DNA of 27,215 bases, from positions 1-27,215 of the forward strand of contig JAOZPP010000039.1 in NCBI GenBank assembly GCA_029932675.1, read 5' to 3'. The DNA comes from a bacterium. Lineage in GTDB: Bacteria > SM23-81 > DAOVCL01. Positions within the stretch are counted from its first letter, which is position 1, and each line of letters starts with the position of its first letter. This document shows positions 3,082 to 27,132 of this stretch, in pieces. Below the pieces are notes generated by a model. It was not told where the DNA came from and ran no database searches. It saw only the letters and a list, made by a program, of their open reading frames with translations. Position numbers and translations under genes: made by a program.

Positions 3082-3155
3082 CGGGGCGTAGCTCAGTTCG
3101 GTAGAGCGCCACGTTCGGGACGTGGAAGCCGCTGGTTCAAATCCAGTCGCCCCGA
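3082..3155 (+). tRNA. tRNA-Pro, anticodon CGG (CCA not encoded)
   Basis: The acceptor stem 3082-3088 pairs with 3148-3154 and the anticodon stem 3109-3113 pairs with 3121-3125, with loop TTCGGGA and anticodon CGG at 3116-3118. The T arm is the same as in the first tRNA-Pro. A3155 is the discriminator; the following bases are TTA, so CCA must be added after transcription, unlike the copy at 268-344. No convincing promoter precedes it. Only 26 nt separate it from the next start codon, so tRNA and mRNA are probably made as one precursor. Confidence 0.97.
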
Positions 3156-16493: not shown

Positions 16494-18515
16494 TTAGTGG
16501 CGAATGGTTAAACCGACCAAAAAGTTTCTCCCAGGCATAGGTCCGTTCCCCTCGTCATAGTCCTTGTCAGTGAGGTTCTTTACGGAGAGGAAGGCTTCTG
16601 TGGGTAGTCTAAATGGAAGTGTGAAACTTTTGGTTAACCTGGCATCCAGCAATAGATAGGGAGGAATTCTTCTGGTAGATAGGGTTTTTTCAACGAAGGA
16701 ATAGTCATATTGACTTCCCACATAGGTTGCCCCGAGGGTGAGGGTAGAGCCGAAGAAGAGGGGGCCGTGGAGGTCCAAATTGAGTTTATGGCTGGGCCTG
16801 TTTTCCAAAGTTCTATCGTTTTGCTCATCCCGAGCGGAGAGATAGGTGTAGTTAACTCCCAACCAAAGGCCCCAGGGAACCCCCAATTTCAAGCCCATTT
16901 CTACGCCCTGAATTATGGCTGAGCCAATGTTTGCATAGATCTTTTTCCCCTCAGCATCTTCCACCCTTTGGATCAGATCCTGGACATCGTTGTGGAAGAG
17001 GGATATCCGATAGTTTATCTTCCTGCCTAATTCGGTTTCCCCTCCCATTTCATAGGCAATGGTCCTTTGAGGCTTCAGGTCAGGGTTCCCTCCAGCGTGG
17101 GTGCTGTATAGCTCCTTCAGATGAGGGAACCGCGTCTTCTTTCCCAAGGAGATATGTAATAGGGTATTGGTGGCGATATTATAAACTAATCCCGCTTGTG
17201 GATTTATCGTCTCGATGCTGCCTGGAGTAGGTACATCTCCGGATCTTAAAGGGTTGAAGTAGTCATAACTTAAGCCCAAAACGAGGGAGAGCTTTTCTAT
17301 TGGTTTGCTTTCCTCCTCTAAGCCAAGGGTATAGGTATCAGCCTCATAAATCATCTCCTCTCCCCAACCCGGAGTGGTTATCTCCCCCCTCCTGTTCTTA
17401 GCGTTATACTCCCTTTGCTTATTTTTATCTTTTACATAGCCAATCCCGATCTTCAGGAGGTGGGACCTCCAAAGGTTGATCCGAGAATGTAATTCTCCAC
17501 CAACCGTGTAATCTTTATAGAGGGACCTATCAAACCAGGATTCCCCTCCTTGGCTTATGGTTCGTTGGGCATCATCGGTAAGTTCATCTCGATGGTAGAG
17601 CCAGAAACCCCTAACCTTAACTGTACTGAGCTCCCTCAGCCTCCTTTCCCCAACCAAATTGAGGAGGGATTGGTCCCATTGGGAAAACCACCAGTAACGG
17701 TTGCGTTCCACTGGACACCCCCGCTCGTTGTGGTAATAGTCGAAGGAAAGGCAAAACTGAGTGGGTTTATTGGGTTGATAACCGATTTTGATGTTTAAAG
17801 TCCGCTTCTGATAATTGCTCAGCTCCCTCTTTCCCCCGTCTTCGTGATATTCAGAGTTCTCTCCCACCCACTTGCTTCCTGGATCAAAATTAGCAGACAG
17901 CCTATACCCAGCTGACTTTCGGTACCCATAGGTGAGGAATAAGTTGCACCTCCCCACCTTGCCCCCATAGTTGAGGCTATAGTTCTGTGTGCCATAATCG
18001 CCAAAGGAAGTGGAGACTTGAGCCAGCGGTTCATTGCCACCGGGTTTGGTAATGATGTTGATCACTCCACCCATAGTATTCACCCCATAGAGAACGGAAG
18101 AGGCGCCTTTGGTCACCCTAATCTTGGCTATAGACTCCACCGGGATGGCTGAAAGGTCAAAAATCCCGGAGTAACATTCGTGGAGGGGAACACCGTCGAG
18201 AAGGATTTTCACATCTCCCGCTTCAAACCCACGAATTTTGACCAGGGATTGGCCTTTCCCCCCTTTTTGCACATCGATGCCCGCAAGGAGCTCCAATGCC
18301 TCACCCACGGTTTGCACACCCCTCCTCCTCATCTCTGCTGCAGTTACTTCGCTGAAGGTAGTGGCCAGGTTGACCCTCTCCCCAATCACTACTATCTCCC
18401 CAAGCTTGAATGCAGGGGTTTTCCTCCTTCCCAATTCATCTGCCCCAGCGCTGGTTATAGCCAATGACAAAAGAAGAGTAACGAAGATTGAGAAAGGTTT
18501 TTCAGGCTGAGTCAT
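16494..18515 (-). CDS. TonB-dependent outer-membrane receptor (BtuB/CirA-like)
   Basis: The 673-residue protein has a signal peptide (about 1-25, ending SAGADE), a TonB-box-like GEIVVIGER near 38-46, a plug domain with VGEALELLAGIDV, VKIRGFEAGDVKILLDGVP, SIAKIRVTKGASSVLYG and MGGVINIITKPGG, and then a 22-strand-type barrel that ends with TEAFLSVKNLTDKDYDEGNG and a last strand FLVGLTIRH. It imports a scarce ligand across the outer membrane using TonB energy; size and plug resemble cobalamin and siderophore receptors, but the ligand is unknown. No TonB, ExbB or ABC genes are nearby, and no cobalamin riboswitch is seen upstream. GGAAAGGA precedes ATG 18515. A terminator hairpin separates it from the gene upstream. 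Confidence 0.92.
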   Translation of the reverse strand: MTQPEKPFSIFVTLLLSLAITSAGADELGRRKTPAFKLGEIVVIGERVNLATTFSEVTAAEMRRRGVQTVGEALELLAGIDVQKGGKGQSLVKIRGFEAGDVKILLDGVPLHECYSGIFDLSAIPVESIAKIRVTKGASSVLYGVNTMGGVINIITKPGGNEPLAQVSTSFGDYGTQNYSLNYGGKVGRCNLFLTYGYRKSAGYRLSANFDPGSKWVGENSEYHEDGGKRELSNYQKRTLNIKIGYQPNKPTQFCLSFDYYHNERGCPVERNRYWWFSQWDQSLLNLVGERRLRELSTVKVRGFWLYHRDELTDDAQRTISQGGESWFDRSLYKDYTVGGELHSRINLWRSHLLKIGIGYVKDKNKQREYNAKNRRGEITTPGWGEEMIYEADTYTLGLEEESKPIEKLSLVLGLSYDYFNPLRSGDVPTPGSIETINPQAGLVYNIATNTLLHISLGKKTRFPHLKELYSTHAGGNPDLKPQRTIAYEMGGETELGRKINYRISLFHNDVQDLIQRVEDAEGKKIYANIGSAIIQGVEMGLKLGVPWGLWLGVNYTYLSARDEQNDRTLENRPSHKLNLDLHGPLFFGSTLTLGATYVGSQYDYSFVEKTLSTRRIPPYLLLDARLTKSFTLPFRLPTEAFLSVKNLTDKDYDEGNGPMPGRNFLVGLTIRH

Positions 18516-18641: not shown

Positions 18642-20606
18642 CTATGTGGTCTCCTTCTCCAATATAATCAGCCTTGTCTGTGGTTTGGCCAGCTTGTCAA
18701 ACATTGACTTTAGGTTTCGGTATTCCCCCCTCTCCACCTTCTTGCTTCTTAGGGCAAGCTTCCTGGTGTAGACAACCTGGCCGTCCCTTTCCTGGCAGCT
18801 AAGGGTGAATTCCCCCACTGGTTTTTCGATCTTCATCTCCTCCGGGAGATGGGCCACCCTATAGCCAGAGGGGATCTTAATTATAACCCTCTCCTCCATA
18901 ATCATTGGGGAAGGGATGATCATATCATATTTTCTGAAGGGAAGGGTGGGGAAGAGGCCATAAAAGGTGAGGGGGTTGGAGGGGACCTCAAAGAGCATCA
19001 TCTCCCCCTCTAAGATAGCATACTGGGGGGATTTGAAGGATAGCCTAATTTCCGCAGGGGTTTTCAGGTCCTTTAGATTAGTGAGGGTATCCGCAACGAG
19101 CTCAGTTCCCTGGGAGATACGGTTTGCTGCCTCCTGGAAGAACTTCTCCCGCTCCTGAGGCGTCTTGTCCTTCAGCAAAGCCCTGGCCACCTGATCGGTG
19201 AATCCCTTTAATCGATTGGTCACTACCCCAGACAGGTTGCCATCCGAGGCGAGATCGAGTTTCATCAAAGCAAACGATCTATTCTCCTCTGGGAGAAGTA
19301 AGGGAATCTTAACTATCTCTCCGCCATCTGGTTTGACCACCAAAGCCTTAGTTCCCTGCTCTTCAGGGGGAAGATAACCCCAAGGGGAGTTTTCCGCCGC
19401 TGGGTCAAGCCAGATGTAACCCCCCTTGGTTCGAGGAACCGCCACAATTAGGTCATTAAACTGTCCGGGAGAAGGTAGGTCCTCATCTATCTCTACCTCG
19501 GAATGGTTGACGAGAGCTGGATAGGCTTCTATTCCCGCCCCCTGGAGTAGAGAGACTAAGAGGACAGCTTTGTCCCGACAATCTCCGTATCTGTTCTCCA
19601 AGACCTTGGGGGCAGGGTGAGGCTTGTAACCAGCCTGGCCCAAGGGAAGGTGGACGGTCCTAATCTCCCTGACCACCCAAAGGAATATGTTCCTTATCTT
19701 CTCTAACTCCGTGATAGCACCAGAGGTAAGCGCGGAAGCCTCCCCCTCTATCTGGCCCGTAACCTTGACCTGGGGATAAAACCCTTTGGCAAACCATTTC
19801 CCCACATCAGTCCAGCTATTAAAGGTGGTGAGGAGAAGGCGAGGGGCAATCTGGTCCAAGGGGGGCATATTGGGCTCTTCAATTATCTGTCCCATATCCT
19901 TTGCCTCCCAGGTGTATACCACCCTCTTTCCTACCTCCTTCTTCATCGGGGATATTTCCCCGTGCAGGATAACTGGTTTGAGTTTAAGATCTGCTGGAGC
20001 ATCGATGGTAAACCTCTTCTCTAAGATTGGGTCAGTTGACCGAAATTTGGTCCCAGTCCAGAAGTTCCTTTTCTGTTTTCCTTTCAGCCAACCAAAAAGC
20101 TTAGAGAAGAGACCACCCCCTTTCTTAACCGACCTGATCTCCCATTGGTAATCTATAATTGAACCCGGTTCTAAGCCAGCGAAGGAGACGACCTTCATCA
20201 TTGCATTGGAGTAAGCTGAGGCCCACTGCACCTCAGGTGCGCTTACATCGGAGATGGCATCCGGGGGGGGCTCAACCACCGAACCATCCGGTTTGAATGT
20301 TCTGGCTACCTCTGTCTCCACCTTCTGATGGGATTTGTCATATCTCTGTTTTATATCCCCCCACTTTTCAATCCCCCTCTTCTTAAAGAGTTTGACCAGA
20401 AGATGTCTTTGGGTTGTGCTTCCCCCATCGGTAAGGATGACCTTGGTATCATCTAGCAGGATGAGGGCACCGGCCTGAGGATAGTCCGAGGCAGGAGGGG
20501 AGTTTTTGACCATATCCTCTGTGCTTTCCCCAATAGCCACTCCCTGTATTCCTCCTCCAATGAGCAGACAGAAGAAAGCAGTGGCAAAGCAGATTTTCCT
20601 CCACAT
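18642..20606 (-). CDS. DUF3857 / transglutaminase-like exported protein, catalytic His replaced
   Basis: The 654-residue protein has an N-terminal signal peptide (hydrophobic segment within residues 5-25). A DUF3857 domain follows (VKLFKKRGIEKWGDI, GLEPGSIIDYQWEIR), then a transglutaminase-like domain around residues 300-430 with cysteine C343 in NRYGDCRDKAVLL and aspartate D401 in YIWLDPAAEN. The position of the histidine is D385 in QFNDLIVAV, where the neighbouring paralogue has H374 in QFNHAIVA. The C-terminal third is beta-rich. It is therefore likely a non-enzymatic or altered member, perhaps a binding partner of its paralogue. It starts 9 bp after that gene's stop with AAGGGGGAAAA as ribosome site. 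These proteins act in the envelope; the substrate is unknown. Confidence 0.88.
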   Translation of the reverse strand: MWRKICFATAFFCLLIGGGIQGVAIGESTEDMVKNSPPASDYPQAGALILLDDTKVILTDGGSTTQRHLLVKLFKKRGIEKWGDIKQRYDKSHQKVETEVARTFKPDGSVVEPPPDAISDVSAPEVQWASAYSNAMMKVVSFAGLEPGSIIDYQWEIRSVKKGGGLFSKLFGWLKGKQKRNFWTGTKFRSTDPILEKRFTIDAPADLKLKPVILHGEISPMKKEVGKRVVYTWEAKDMGQIIEEPNMPPLDQIAPRLLLTTFNSWTDVGKWFAKGFYPQVKVTGQIEGEASALTSGAITELEKIRNIFLWVVREIRTVHLPLGQAGYKPHPAPKVLENRYGDCRDKAVLLVSLLQGAGIEAYPALVNHSEVEIDEDLPSPGQFNDLIVAVPRTKGGYIWLDPAAENSPWGYLPPEEQGTKALVVKPDGGEIVKIPLLLPEENRSFALMKLDLASDGNLSGVVTNRLKGFTDQVARALLKDKTPQEREKFFQEAANRISQGTELVADTLTNLKDLKTPAEIRLSFKSPQYAILEGEMMLFEVPSNPLTFYGLFPTLPFRKYDMIIPSPMIMEERVIIKIPSGYRVAHLPEEMKIEKPVGEFTLSCQERDGQVVYTRKLALRSKKVERGEYRNLKSMFDKLAKPQTRLIILEKETT

Positions 20607-20615
20607 TTTTCCCCC

Positions 20616-22565
20616 TTATAGGTTTTGTTTGGCGACAAGTATGATCTTTCCCTTGGCGGATCTCTCCACCCCTTGGAGCATCTCCCTCAGATCCCCATAT
20701 TCATTGAGGTTGATCTCCGGCTGGTGATAGAGGACCTGCTTGCTAAAGAGAACCTTTTCCCCTTGGGGTTGATAGGAGGCATGAAAGGAGAAGTGCGGGT
20801 AGGACTTCTCTATCGGTGAGGGGACAGCCTTGAGGGTAAAACCTGGGGGAAGGCTGATCTCCTCATCGACCTGGGAGCCAAAAGTAGTTCTGATGTTCAA
20901 AGGGTATCTCCTCTGAGGGAGATTGGCTCCTCTTAGGAAGGCAAAGGAGAGAAAGTCGAACGTCCCCACTGCGGTGGGTGCAGAAAAGAGGTAGTAATCA
21001 CCAGCCTTCATCCAATAGTCAGTCACCGAATATTCTATCTCTACCGTAACCGGAGTATAGAGATCGCTAAGATCTGAGATCTTTAAATCCTTTACTGTGG
21101 CCCCTGGAGAGACCGATTGCAGGAGGCCTTGAAACATCATATTCCTCTGCATCGGAGGCATCTGTTTTAACCAAGAACGGAAGACGACATCATAGCACCC
21201 GTTTGCTTCTATTATTACCTGGCCATCCAAGACCCCTTCAGGGTTTAGGTGGGAGATCGCCTTTATGTGGGCCATCCCATTGGTAGGTGGCACTATGGGG
21301 GTAAACTCCAGATCCTCACCCCTCTCATCGCAGACCAGTACCGCCTTATCTTGCTCAAAGGGGGAGAGGAATTCCCTGGTATTCTCAAAGGTAGGATCGA
21401 TATACCAGAACTTTCCCCCTCGGTCCTTTATGGCCACTATAGCATGATTAAACTGATCCACTGGAAGGTCCCTCTCCACGCGGATGGCCGGGTTGGTGAG
21501 GACGATGTAGGCATCGACTCCCAAGACCTTAAGCATAGAGACTAAGAGGGCAGCCTTATCCCGGCAGACCCCAAACTGTTGTTTGAAGGTCTTGGGAGCA
21601 GGGAAGGGCTTATGGCCGGCCTTCTTCCCAGACATAGAAGTGCCCACATACCTTATCTTCTGGGAGACGAAGTAGTAGAGGGCCCTGATCTTCTCCTCCT
21701 CTGTTTGTAGATCAGAGGTCAATTCGGCAACCTTATCCCTAATGGCCTGATCAGCCTCAAAGGTGGGGCTGGCCAATTCGTAGTACCACCTCGACCATTC
21801 CTTCCAAGAGGGAACAGTGGTGACCAGTAGCTTCGTGGCCACATCGGAAAGCGGTGGCATACCTGGTTCCCTGATGACCCTCGGGACATCCCTTGCTACC
21901 CAGCGGTAGATCACTTTATCCCCTTTGCTCTCCCGGGAGAAATCCAGCCTCACATTCTCATTCTTTACCAGATATCTGATCTTCATCCCCTGGGGGACGA
22001 TGAGCTCAAATACTTGGCAGGAGATGGGGTCCATCCCCTCAAAGAGAAGGAAAGTATCGAAGTTATTCTCCATTGGGGGGTTTCTCATTATATCCTTGGT
22101 GGCAAACTCTATGGAGGAGCCAAGCACTAAATTGGGGAAGGTGATGATCTTCTCCCGCACATGGGGTAGGAAGAACTTCCCAAAGGCGGGAAGGGGAATG
22201 TCCTTAATCTGGTTTGCAGGGATATCTACTATGGTCCCTCCTCTACCAATCACCCTGGCCATAGTTACTAACACGGTGTCATAGGCAGAGAAATAACCGG
22301 TTTTGGCCTCGCTGTAGTTTTCCTTCCCCTGTGCAGTGAGTATCTTCACCAACTTGTGCTCTCTCTGGACATATTTCCCTGATCGTTGGAGGTCAACTCT
22401 AATGCTATCGAAGACGACCACTGCGTTGGCATCAGGATATTTCTCAGCCTGGATCTGATTTAAGGTCTGGACGAGTCCCCTCTGAACTACCTGCCTTTGA
22501 GCGGCACATCCCCATATGAGAAGGCTTAACAGAAGAGGGAAAAGGACAAACCAAAGCTTTTTCAT
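20616..22565 (-). CDS. DUF3857 / transglutaminase-like lipoprotein with intact Cys-His-Asp
   Basis: The 649-residue protein has a lipoprotein signal with lipobox LIWGC (C20), so it is likely anchored to a membrane. It contains a DUF3857 domain (EHKLVKILTAQGKENYSE, LVLGSSIEFATKDI) and a transglutaminase-like domain with C334 in QFGVCRDKAALLVSML, H374 in QFNHAIVAIKD and D390 in FWYIDPTFEN; the distances (40 and 16) match the family triad. The last 200 residues are beta-rich. It is the upstream member of a tandem paralogous pair, with GGAGG before ATG 22565. Transglutaminase-like folds can act as cysteine peptidases or amidases; the actual reaction is not known. Confidence 0.9.
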   Translation of the reverse strand: MKKLWFVLFPLLLSLLIWGCAAQRQVVQRGLVQTLNQIQAEKYPDANAVVVFDSIRVDLQRSGKYVQREHKLVKILTAQGKENYSEAKTGYFSAYDTVLVTMARVIGRGGTIVDIPANQIKDIPLPAFGKFFLPHVREKIITFPNLVLGSSIEFATKDIMRNPPMENNFDTFLLFEGMDPISCQVFELIVPQGMKIRYLVKNENVRLDFSRESKGDKVIYRWVARDVPRVIREPGMPPLSDVATKLLVTTVPSWKEWSRWYYELASPTFEADQAIRDKVAELTSDLQTEEEKIRALYYFVSQKIRYVGTSMSGKKAGHKPFPAPKTFKQQFGVCRDKAALLVSMLKVLGVDAYIVLTNPAIRVERDLPVDQFNHAIVAIKDRGGKFWYIDPTFENTREFLSPFEQDKAVLVCDERGEDLEFTPIVPPTNGMAHIKAISHLNPEGVLDGQVIIEANGCYDVVFRSWLKQMPPMQRNMMFQGLLQSVSPGATVKDLKISDLSDLYTPVTVEIEYSVTDYWMKAGDYYLFSAPTAVGTFDFLSFAFLRGANLPQRRYPLNIRTTFGSQVDEEISLPPGFTLKAVPSPIEKSYPHFSFHASYQPQGEKVLFSKQVLYHQPEINLNEYGDLREMLQGVERSAKGKIILVAKQNL

Positions 22566-25429: not shown

Positions 25430-26026
25430 CTATCCTTCCCTCTTGAAAGCTTTCTCAATAAGACCGCAGATTATGTGTCCAGCCATCATATACCCTTCCT
25501 GAATCCCCTGAGTATCCTGGGAAGGGATGATCAAGGGGAAGTCCACCACGGAGGAAAGCTTCTTACCCCCCTCTCCGGTAAAGCCCACCACTTGCAGACC
25601 GATCTCTTTGGCCCTCTGAGCGGCGCGGATCACGTTCTCCGAAGATCCACTTGTACTGATGGCCACCAAGACATCCCCCTCTTTACCTAAGGCCTCCACC
25701 TGACGGGAGAAGGCTTCTGCAAAACTCAGGTCATTGGATATCGCCGAGAGGATAGGAGGGTTGCTGGAGAGGGCCAAAGCAGGTAGAGCCCTCCTCTTCT
25801 CTTTTAACTTCACTACCAGTTCACAAGCCAGATGTTGCGCATCGGCTGCACTTCCCCCGTTGCCACAAATAAGGACTTTGCCTCCATCTCGAAAGGTTCT
25901 TGTCAGAAGTTCGGCAATCCTCAATATCTGCTGAGAGCAGTTTACCTTCATCTCCTCTACAAGCTTTGATCTATCCGAGATCTGTGCCAAGATAAAGGTG
26001 AGGTTATCATCCCTTTCTCTCTGCAT
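25430..26026 (-). CDS. gmhA: Sedoheptulose-7-phosphate isomerase
   Basis: GmhA turns sedoheptulose-7-phosphate into D-glycero-D-manno-heptose-7-phosphate, the first step to ADP-heptose for the LPS core. The 198-residue SIS-domain protein shows [20 protein letters not shown] (glutamate near residue 69), a [13 protein letters not shown] region, [11 protein letters not shown] and the C-terminal [16 protein letters not shown] helix with the family histidine. An SIS protein of another pathway is possible but this motif set is typical. ATG 26026 has GGAGAATCGGGGAG upstream. It is the first gene of the gmhA-ppdK unit driven by the promoter at 26078-26106. Confidence 0.93.
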
Positions 26027-26077
26027 CTCCCCGATTCTCCTTGGTTAAATCCTCTATTTGTTGGTAACTTGATGTCC

Positions 26078-26106
26078 AAGATAATATCCTGGTTGATAGT
26101 TGTCAA
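26078..26106 (-). promoter_or_regulatory. Promoter of the gmhA-ppdK operon
   Basis: On the minus strand TTGACA (26106-26101), 17 nt, then TATCTT (26083-26078). The predicted start near 26071 gives a 45-nt leader with a good ribosome site. The hexamers and spacing are identical to those of the ccdA promoter. Confidence 0.75.
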
Positions 26107-26182
26107 GCCAAACTTGACCTCTTGCTGGCTGATGACCCCACATGGTAAACCATCCTGAATAGATTCTCTCTCTTCTATCCAA

Positions 26183-26215
26183 GCAGACCTGTCTGCCGTG
26201 GCCCAGGCAGGCAGA
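26183..26215. repeat. Imperfect palindromic GC-rich element beside the transposase end
   Basis: GCAGAC-CT-GTCTGC (26183-26196) is a perfect short palindrome, overlapped by a second hairpin CTGCC/GGCAG (26193-26197 with 26206-26210, loop GTGGCCCA) and a repeated GGCA. It looks like a short mobile palindromic repeat placed at the end of the transposase remnant. Confidence 0.5.
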
Positions 26216-26220
26216 AGCTG

Positions 26221-27132
26221 GTCAACGATTACGGGAGCAAGATTAAAGACCTCAGGGGATATCCCTTTATGGGGTAGCTCCCCAAATATCTCCAGTGGCG
26301 CCTTCCTCCCCCTGTGCCTATTCTTCCTCTTGTAGTTGAACCAAAGCTGATAAGCCCAAGCCTTCCCCATAAACTCCTCTCTACCTCTGTACTCCTCAAT
26401 CTCATAAAACTCATCCTCAATCAGCCCATGAAATGCTTCTACATCACTATTCCAAGTGGGTGATGAGGGAGGTATGCGCACCCCCTTTACCCCAAAGCTC
26501 TCCAATACCTCCTGAAAACATTCTTGCCCCCCTTCAACCGATTACTAATAAATTAGCCCCATTATCTATCTGAAATATCACCCGGGCCACCTCTACACCA
26601 CATCCCTTAAATACCAGGCAAATAAAGCAGCATTAGTAGCTGGCTTCTCCTGGGCATAGGCAGACCAACTTTCACCTATCCTTACACCTCGCGCCGAGAG
26701 CTGATAGCGGGGAAGCTCTAACCTCCTCATCTGGGGCCAATACCTCTCTATATCCACTAGGTCCTTGGTGTCTAACTGGATAAGCTCCAGAACCCTCAGC
26801 TTCTCCTTCTGTTCCCTTAAATCCCTCCTTTTCCGCCATCTCTTCTTTCTCCCCTTGGTTAACCCCGCCTGCCTGATTATCCGGGCTATGGTCTTGGGAG
26901 ATATGGGGAGGTCAAACTCCAGCTTTAACTGCTCCGCCCCCCAGGTAGGATAACTTCTGTGTAGCTCAATCACCCTTTCCTTTATTTCCTTGGCCGTCTT
27001 GTGGGGTATCCTCTGGGGTGCTCGGGAGCGCTCCTCAAGCCCCCTTAATCCCTCCTGCCTATATCTTTCCTTCCACTTGCGCACAGTGCTTCTGATAGTC
27101 CTATACTCCCTGGCGGTCTGGCTAATTCCCAC
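26221..27132 (-). pseudogene. Broken IS481-type (DDE) transposase
   Basis: The N-terminal part (27132-26593) reads as two helix-turn-helix regions (QTAREYRTIRSTVRKWKERY; YPTWGAEQLKLEFDLPISPK) and the start of the rve catalytic domain with the first aspartate in LIQLDTKDL. It stops at TAG 26593. The second aspartate lies in another frame at about 26590-26540 (VIFQIDNGAN), which ends in TGA beside a GGGGGG run. The third frame then gives SPTWNSDVEAFHGLIEDEFY with the glutamate, NYKRKNRHRGRKAPLEIF and FNLAPVIVDQLLP near 26230. The D-D-E order is thus preserved over at least two frameshifts, so it is inactive. Coding may continue upstream toward the window's right edge. Terminal inverted repeats were not found. 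Confidence 0.85.

Follow-up and report, generated by a model that had tools for sequence, protein, structure and literature searches.

Enzymes that depend on a catalytically dead relative are known from trypanosomes. As far as the available portions of the reports describe them, the AdoMetDC 'prozyme' (PMC5201418) and deoxyhypusine synthase (PMC3663545) are cases in which a dead paralogue activates the enzyme within a heteromer. A comparable arrangement occurs in the bacterial DNA considered here, a window of 27,215 nucleotides (the whole stretch analysed; contig JAOZPP010000039.1, assembly GCA_029932675.1). Two adjacent genes on its minus strand, copy A followed by copy B, both encode DUF3857-transglutaminase proteins. 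The likeness to the trypanosome systems is that of an intact enzyme accompanied by a catalytically dead paralogue. However, those enzymes are unrelated to this family, belong to eukaryotic parasites and have a known activation, whereas the window-type pair is bacterial, exported, spread across phyla, sometimes fused and known here from sequence.

Closer in fold are the BTLCP proteins HvyA and LapG, which share a periplasmic transglutaminase-like fold with Cys-His-Asp. The function of Caulobacter HvyA, a periplasmic transglutaminase-like protein, requires both the Cys and the His, according to the part of its description consulted (PMC4241560). However, BTLCP is a different family without DUF3857, and the same part of the HvyA/LapG description mentions no dead twin (PMC4241560). 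Neither A nor B gave a Pfam match to BTLCP at E 0.001. Further resemblances come from structure. Erythrocyte protein 4.2 and the axonemal nexin-dynein linker proteins match the model of B, with Z scores of only 9-11. Protein 4.2 is a non-catalytic relative of transglutaminases with a structural role. These proteins are eukaryotic, unlike the bacterial pair, and we know of no pairing of any of them with an adjacent intact paralogue. No description of intact/dead DUF3857 pairing was found in the open-access literature, where DUF3857 itself is scarcely mentioned, and no bacterial transglutaminase-like pseudoenzyme was found there.

The family's only solved structure is 3KD4, which is BDI_1141 of Parabacteroides distasonis, deposited as a 'putative protease'. 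It has the same domain architecture and fold as B, whose model matches it best over its length (Z 33.8; 19% identity over 499 aligned residues); transglutaminase-like cysteine enzymes come next at Z ~10. 3KD4 is itself a dead copy. It reads YGTPLEIAQLL where A of the window reads FGVCRDKAALL, with the Cys replaced by Pro. It resembles the other dead copies in this absence and in having an intact paralogue nearby: in genome G629, which holds the 3KD4 gene (100% match over the part searched), a copy with the motifs GVCKD, DHFNH and PLDPT lies 13 bp upstream. No publication on BDI_1141 or 3KD4 was found in the open-access search.

An intact copy and a dead copy in tandem

The original prediction described tandem DUF3857/transglutaminase paralogues at 18642-22565, and both open reading frames (ORFs) are there, on the minus strand. 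Copy A (20616-22565) encodes a lipoprotein-type protein of 649 amino acids. It has a DUF3857 domain at residues 62-229 (21879-22382; PF12969, 93.3 bits) and a transglutaminase-like core at residues 279-391 (21393-21731; PF01841, 45.4 bits). Copy B (18642-20606) encodes a periplasmic-type protein of 654 amino acids, with DUF3857 at residues 60-238 (19893-20429; 109 bits) and a core that Pfam matches at residues 292-361 (19524-19733; 34.2 bits), ending short of the His position. The curated cut-offs for the two families are 24.6 and 23 bits. B also has a C-terminal DUF3858 domain (PF12970; 39.9 bits, cut-off 27), which was not matched in A at E 0.001, and NCBIfam matched neither protein. The proposed distinction between a lipoprotein copy and a soluble-type copy agrees with the N-termini: A has a lipobox-like LLIWGC, its I-W-G-C (22506-22517) ending in Cys20, and B has a signal-peptide-like segment without a lipobox. 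A and B are probably co-translated, judging from the 9-bp gap between the stop of A and the ATG of B (20607-20615) and the purine-rich AAGGGGG within it, a possible ribosome-binding site.

Codons and alignment bear out the catalytic residues that had been named. A has a complete triad of Cys334 (21564-21566), His374 (21444-21446) and Asp390 (21396-21398), and these columns are identical in 22/22 intact rows of alignment A4. The triad of B is incomplete. It has Cys343 (TGT, 19578-19580) and Asp401 (19404-19406), but in the full alignment Asp385 (GAC, 19452-19454) faces His374 of A, within QFND in B and QFNH in A. The His-to-Asp change is therefore real in B. It is the lesion of this copy only and not a general rule; most dead copies have lost the Cys. 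B is atypical in retaining a Cys that is gone in nearly all its relatives. A copy at locus L044 (L and G numbers denote the loci and genomes surveyed) likewise has Cys without His, and both retention and return of the residue fit these two cases. The structure prediction indicates that B is a full-length, well-folded paralogue (predicted local distance difference test score, pLDDT, 93.5; predicted template modelling score, pTM, 0.90).

Could a single substitution of this kind be an accident? When the window's genome was searched for DUF3857, seven proteins came up: one intact copy that stands alone, and six that form three tandem pairs. Each pair opens with a gene that has the full Cys-His-Asp triad and closes with one that does not. 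The lesions of the two other dead copies are larger than that of B: L019:3733-5646 has Pro for Cys and Gly for His, and L021:3289-5193 has Ser for Cys and no His. The lone His-to-Asp observation is thus more than chance, because the same genome has two further intact-then-dead tandem pairs.

The third pair is also present in the sister genome G001. A conserved exported protein of 692 amino acids, DUF3160-like by eye, precedes it in both places (L021:7446-9524 and L022:4068-6146) and also occurs near L035. The window pair has a different history in G001, where a 95-bp remnant (L023:4464-4557) shares 84% identity with the final ~31 codons of B and no window-type A was found (the genome is ~90% complete). 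Since a B remnant is left and A is missing, both genes were apparently lost there as a unit. The remnant is flanked by genes for a zinc-ribbon protein and a helicase-restriction-like protein.

Pairs, fusions and co-divergence across phyla

A contig scan with intact copies as query gave 80 loci; a scan with B alone gave no match. Each unfused locus with enough flank has a dead paralogue beside its intact one; these loci come from Cloacimonadota, WOR-3, TA06, Calditrichota, Zixibacteria, UBP14, Bacteroidales and deltaproteobacterial bins. Loci L024-L103 had been picked on the intact motif, so that they inform only on the state of B. To escape this bias, a second sample of genomes from four phyla was drawn by DUF3857 only, without motif selection, and the residues were read afterwards (for Bacteroidota, in part of the DUF3857 places located). 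The same one-intact pattern emerged.

Altogether ~150 tandem or fused arrangements from many phyla were read, and each has just a single copy with both Cys and His. The de-duplicated tally stands at 134/134 with one intact copy (58 intact-dead, 8 dead-intact, 65 fused intact-dead and 3 triples), and none of the 134 has two intact copies. One intact copy is also found outside the tally, in the window, in 13 Bacteroidales pairs, at L309 and in the completed G055 cluster, which terminates in it. At L135 and L143 the catalytic region of the second copy could not be aligned, and L136 was left out of the count because its intact copy is split into two frames. Of the intact copies tallied as solitary, some had already been seen as members of pairs (e.g., L184, L193). 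Ten dead copies are unlinked, and an intact copy is present in the same genome for all of them (e.g., G103, G091, G191, G154, G208).

The arrangement varies between groups. In Bacteroidota the dead gene is frequently first, or there are two dead genes. Within Bacteroidales, 13/15 loci have the intact-then-dead order of the 3KD4 locus. The two others (L306:1799-3679 and L307:3278-5146) are chimeras, in which a dead transglutaminase core follows an N-terminal part that comes from an intact copy. Four Bacteroidales loci (L286, L293, L306, L307) have the pair or chimera directly downstream of MenB-, MenC- and MenE-like genes of menaquinone biosynthesis, identified by eye. WOR-3 has a second pair type, in which a GYGDCTDK copy accompanies a dead copy. 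At four such loci (L124, L133, L134, L141) the pair is downstream of a prolipoprotein diacylglyceryl transferase-like gene, and the lipobox tends to be on the dead copy rather than the intact one.

The two copies are also found as a single protein. Proteins of ~1250-1340 amino acids in Verrucomicrobiota, Lentisphaerota, Planctomycetota and other groups are A-B fusions, in which each half is matched by the whole profile. The N-terminal half is intact. The Cys is gone from every readable C-terminal half and the His from all but one. In three Bacteroidota proteins of ~1250 amino acids (L155, L165, L308) the C-terminal core is intact and the N-terminal half goes unmatched by the profile. That half is possibly a very divergent dead one.

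How often did the dead state arise? In a tree of 323 copies, built with the Cys and His columns removed, intact and dead copies separate and only three changes of state are required. The type-1 dead copies lie on one side of a branch with full support (100 in the Shimodaira-Hasegawa-like approximate likelihood ratio test, SH-aLRT). A single origin of all dead copies was not rejected by the approximately unbiased (AU) test (p 0.29), nor is it shown by the tree with its three changes. The enzyme/pseudo-enzyme idea would falter if most homologues of both copies lacked the His. Instead, every member of the A clade has Cys and His, and the B clade has both together in none.

Relaxation in the dead copies is limited to the active site. 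Among type-1 dead copies, conservation is still 92-96% at the structural, fold-bearing columns, while 0, 1, 8 and 30% retain the Tyr, Cys, His and Asp of the active site, each of which stands at 100% in intact copies. Two DUF3857 columns that are not shared with A are 92-95% conserved in type-1 dead copies. In a mirror-tree comparison of 66 unfused pairs, the distances of A and B correlate at r 0.88 versus a shuffled mean of 0.00, a value to which shared descent contributes. The recurrence that was to be looked for in other genomes is therefore clear: tandem pairs that include one dead copy turn up in many phyla, several phyla have them fused, and the partners co-diverge.

A probable non-catalytic partner and its alternatives

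We think it rather probable that A and B work in the cell envelope as an enzyme and its pseudoenzyme partner. This draws on the homology of the copies, the catalytic loss in one of them, their pairing, fusion and co-divergence, and the retained fold and B-specific residues of the dead copy. To this extent the enzyme/pseudo-enzyme idea of the original prediction gains support from sequence comparison; the physical partnership it proposed is something we infer. A would be an active hydrolase or acyl-transferase of the papain/transglutaminase fold, with an envelope protein or peptide as substrate. B, exported by its signal peptide, would bind A in a complex as a non-catalytic subunit and modulate it, perhaps by stabilising A, by switching it or by presenting its substrate. 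The model for such a role is trypanosome AdoMetDC, which its dead paralogue activates. In the window it is A that bears the lipid anchor, in the second pair type it is B; for a single complex of A and B, an anchor on either partner would suffice.

Several observations do not fit so comfortably. Modelled with AlphaFold2, a natural fusion (1200/1244 residues of the L067 protein) has a pLDDT of 87.6 and a pTM of 0.68, a value that speaks neither for nor against packing of the two halves. The two Bacteroidales chimeras, the sole exceptions, have a dead core and no separate intact copy was found in their genomes. In other subfamilies some intact copies stand by themselves (e.g., L020, L191). By a crude lipobox test, neither copy has an anchor in 29/56 unfused pairs. 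Finally, the ~150 pairs are related by descent and represent only one to three independent origins.

What if B has a target of its own? It might be an adaptor, an inhibitor or a structural protein of the envelope that never contacts A and shares its operon only through a common process. The DUF3857 signature conserved in B and absent from A would suit such a role, as would the chimeras and the few genomes in which A and B are unlinked. However, B has been fused to A repeatedly and is almost never seen without it, and we regard this explanation as unlikely. Another proposal leaves B attached to A and gives it no new role. An ancestral homodimer could have become a heterodimer by duplication, after which one subunit lost its active site with no regulatory role gained. 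Drift of this kind has been modelled, as the consulted part of one study reports (PMC11066126). The diversity of residues that replace Cys and His (P, S, T, V, N, E, L, D and others) fits relaxed constraint. Such a neutral ratchet also predicts a physical complex and differs from an enzyme-pseudoenzyme partnership only in the role of B. It is put in considerable doubt by the conserved B-specific residues that A lacks, and by a dead state that appears stable across phyla.

The remaining explanations deny that B is a maintained non-catalytic protein. B could be active with a rebuilt site, Cys343 being assisted by Asp385 or by a different His, H368 for example. Cys343 and Asp401 are present, H368 is placed just past a core strand in the model, and variant triads are described for other transglutaminase-like families, such as the Cys-His-Ser of vasohibins (PMC4866520, in the portion available). 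However, by sequence no other conserved His fills the site. H368 is N, S, G, T, A or P in dead relatives, most of which also lack the Cys, and a change of Cys or His abolishes the function of Caulobacter HvyA in the description cited above (PMC4241560). A rebuilt site is thus very improbable. Least credible of all is that B is a decaying pseudogene of A. B does evolve a little faster, with median pair distances of 4.7 vs 3.8 for A, and the remnant in the sister genome could be taken as an end point of decay. However, the ORFs are full-length in nearly all pairs. B3, compared between two genomes of the genus, has 0.24 nonsynonymous (dN) and 2.1 synonymous (dS) substitutions per site, with dS saturated and the comparison a rough guide only. 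A dead clade that spans phyla has been conserved for so long that decay is contradicted.

If an enzyme-pseudoenzyme partnership is extended to the family, a broader proposal follows. The pairs may constitute a phylum-spanning, previously undescribed two-subunit cysteine enzyme of the envelope, in which the intact DUF3857-transglutaminase subunit works only with its dead twin, in tandem or fused. The dead state would possibly have been reached up to three times, and the sole crystal structure would be that of the dead subunit. We give this proposal an even chance.

Surroundings of the pairs and what the pairing would mean

The original prediction placed the pair next to a TonB receptor. The gene is indeed downstream of B (16494-18515, 126 bp past the B stop), but it is not a conserved neighbour of the pairs and was rejected as a conserved partner. 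No third gene is conserved beside the pairs, the most frequent other neighbour family being present at 9/143 loci, so that the TonB receptor after B is probably incidental. The commonest extra neighbour of type-1 pairs is a lipoprotein-like family of ~270 amino acids (9 loci: L024, L030, L031, L032, L034, L036, L037, L040, L131). Near the pair, promoter and terminator scans gave no excess over shuffles, and Rfam gave only two tRNAs and no riboswitch or other RNA. The tRNA genes of the window are at 268-341 and 3082-3155; a minus-strand ORF of 159 amino acids over the second is probably spurious. At 25957-27132, two minus-strand ORFs resemble a broken insertion sequence (IS)-type transposase with helix-turn-helix and integrase parts.

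The DUF3857-transglutaminase family is widespread, uncharacterised and present in gut Bacteroidales. What began as an isolated His-to-Asp case becomes a general rule of one intact and one dead copy, in tandem or fused. The family's reference structure, labelled a 'putative protease', lacks the catalytic Cys. If the rule holds, the functional unit is predicted to be a heterodimer, and expression of a single copy may then show no activity. The natural fusions, together with the two genes side by side in P. distasonis, a gut commensal that can be cultured, make this hypothesis directly testable.

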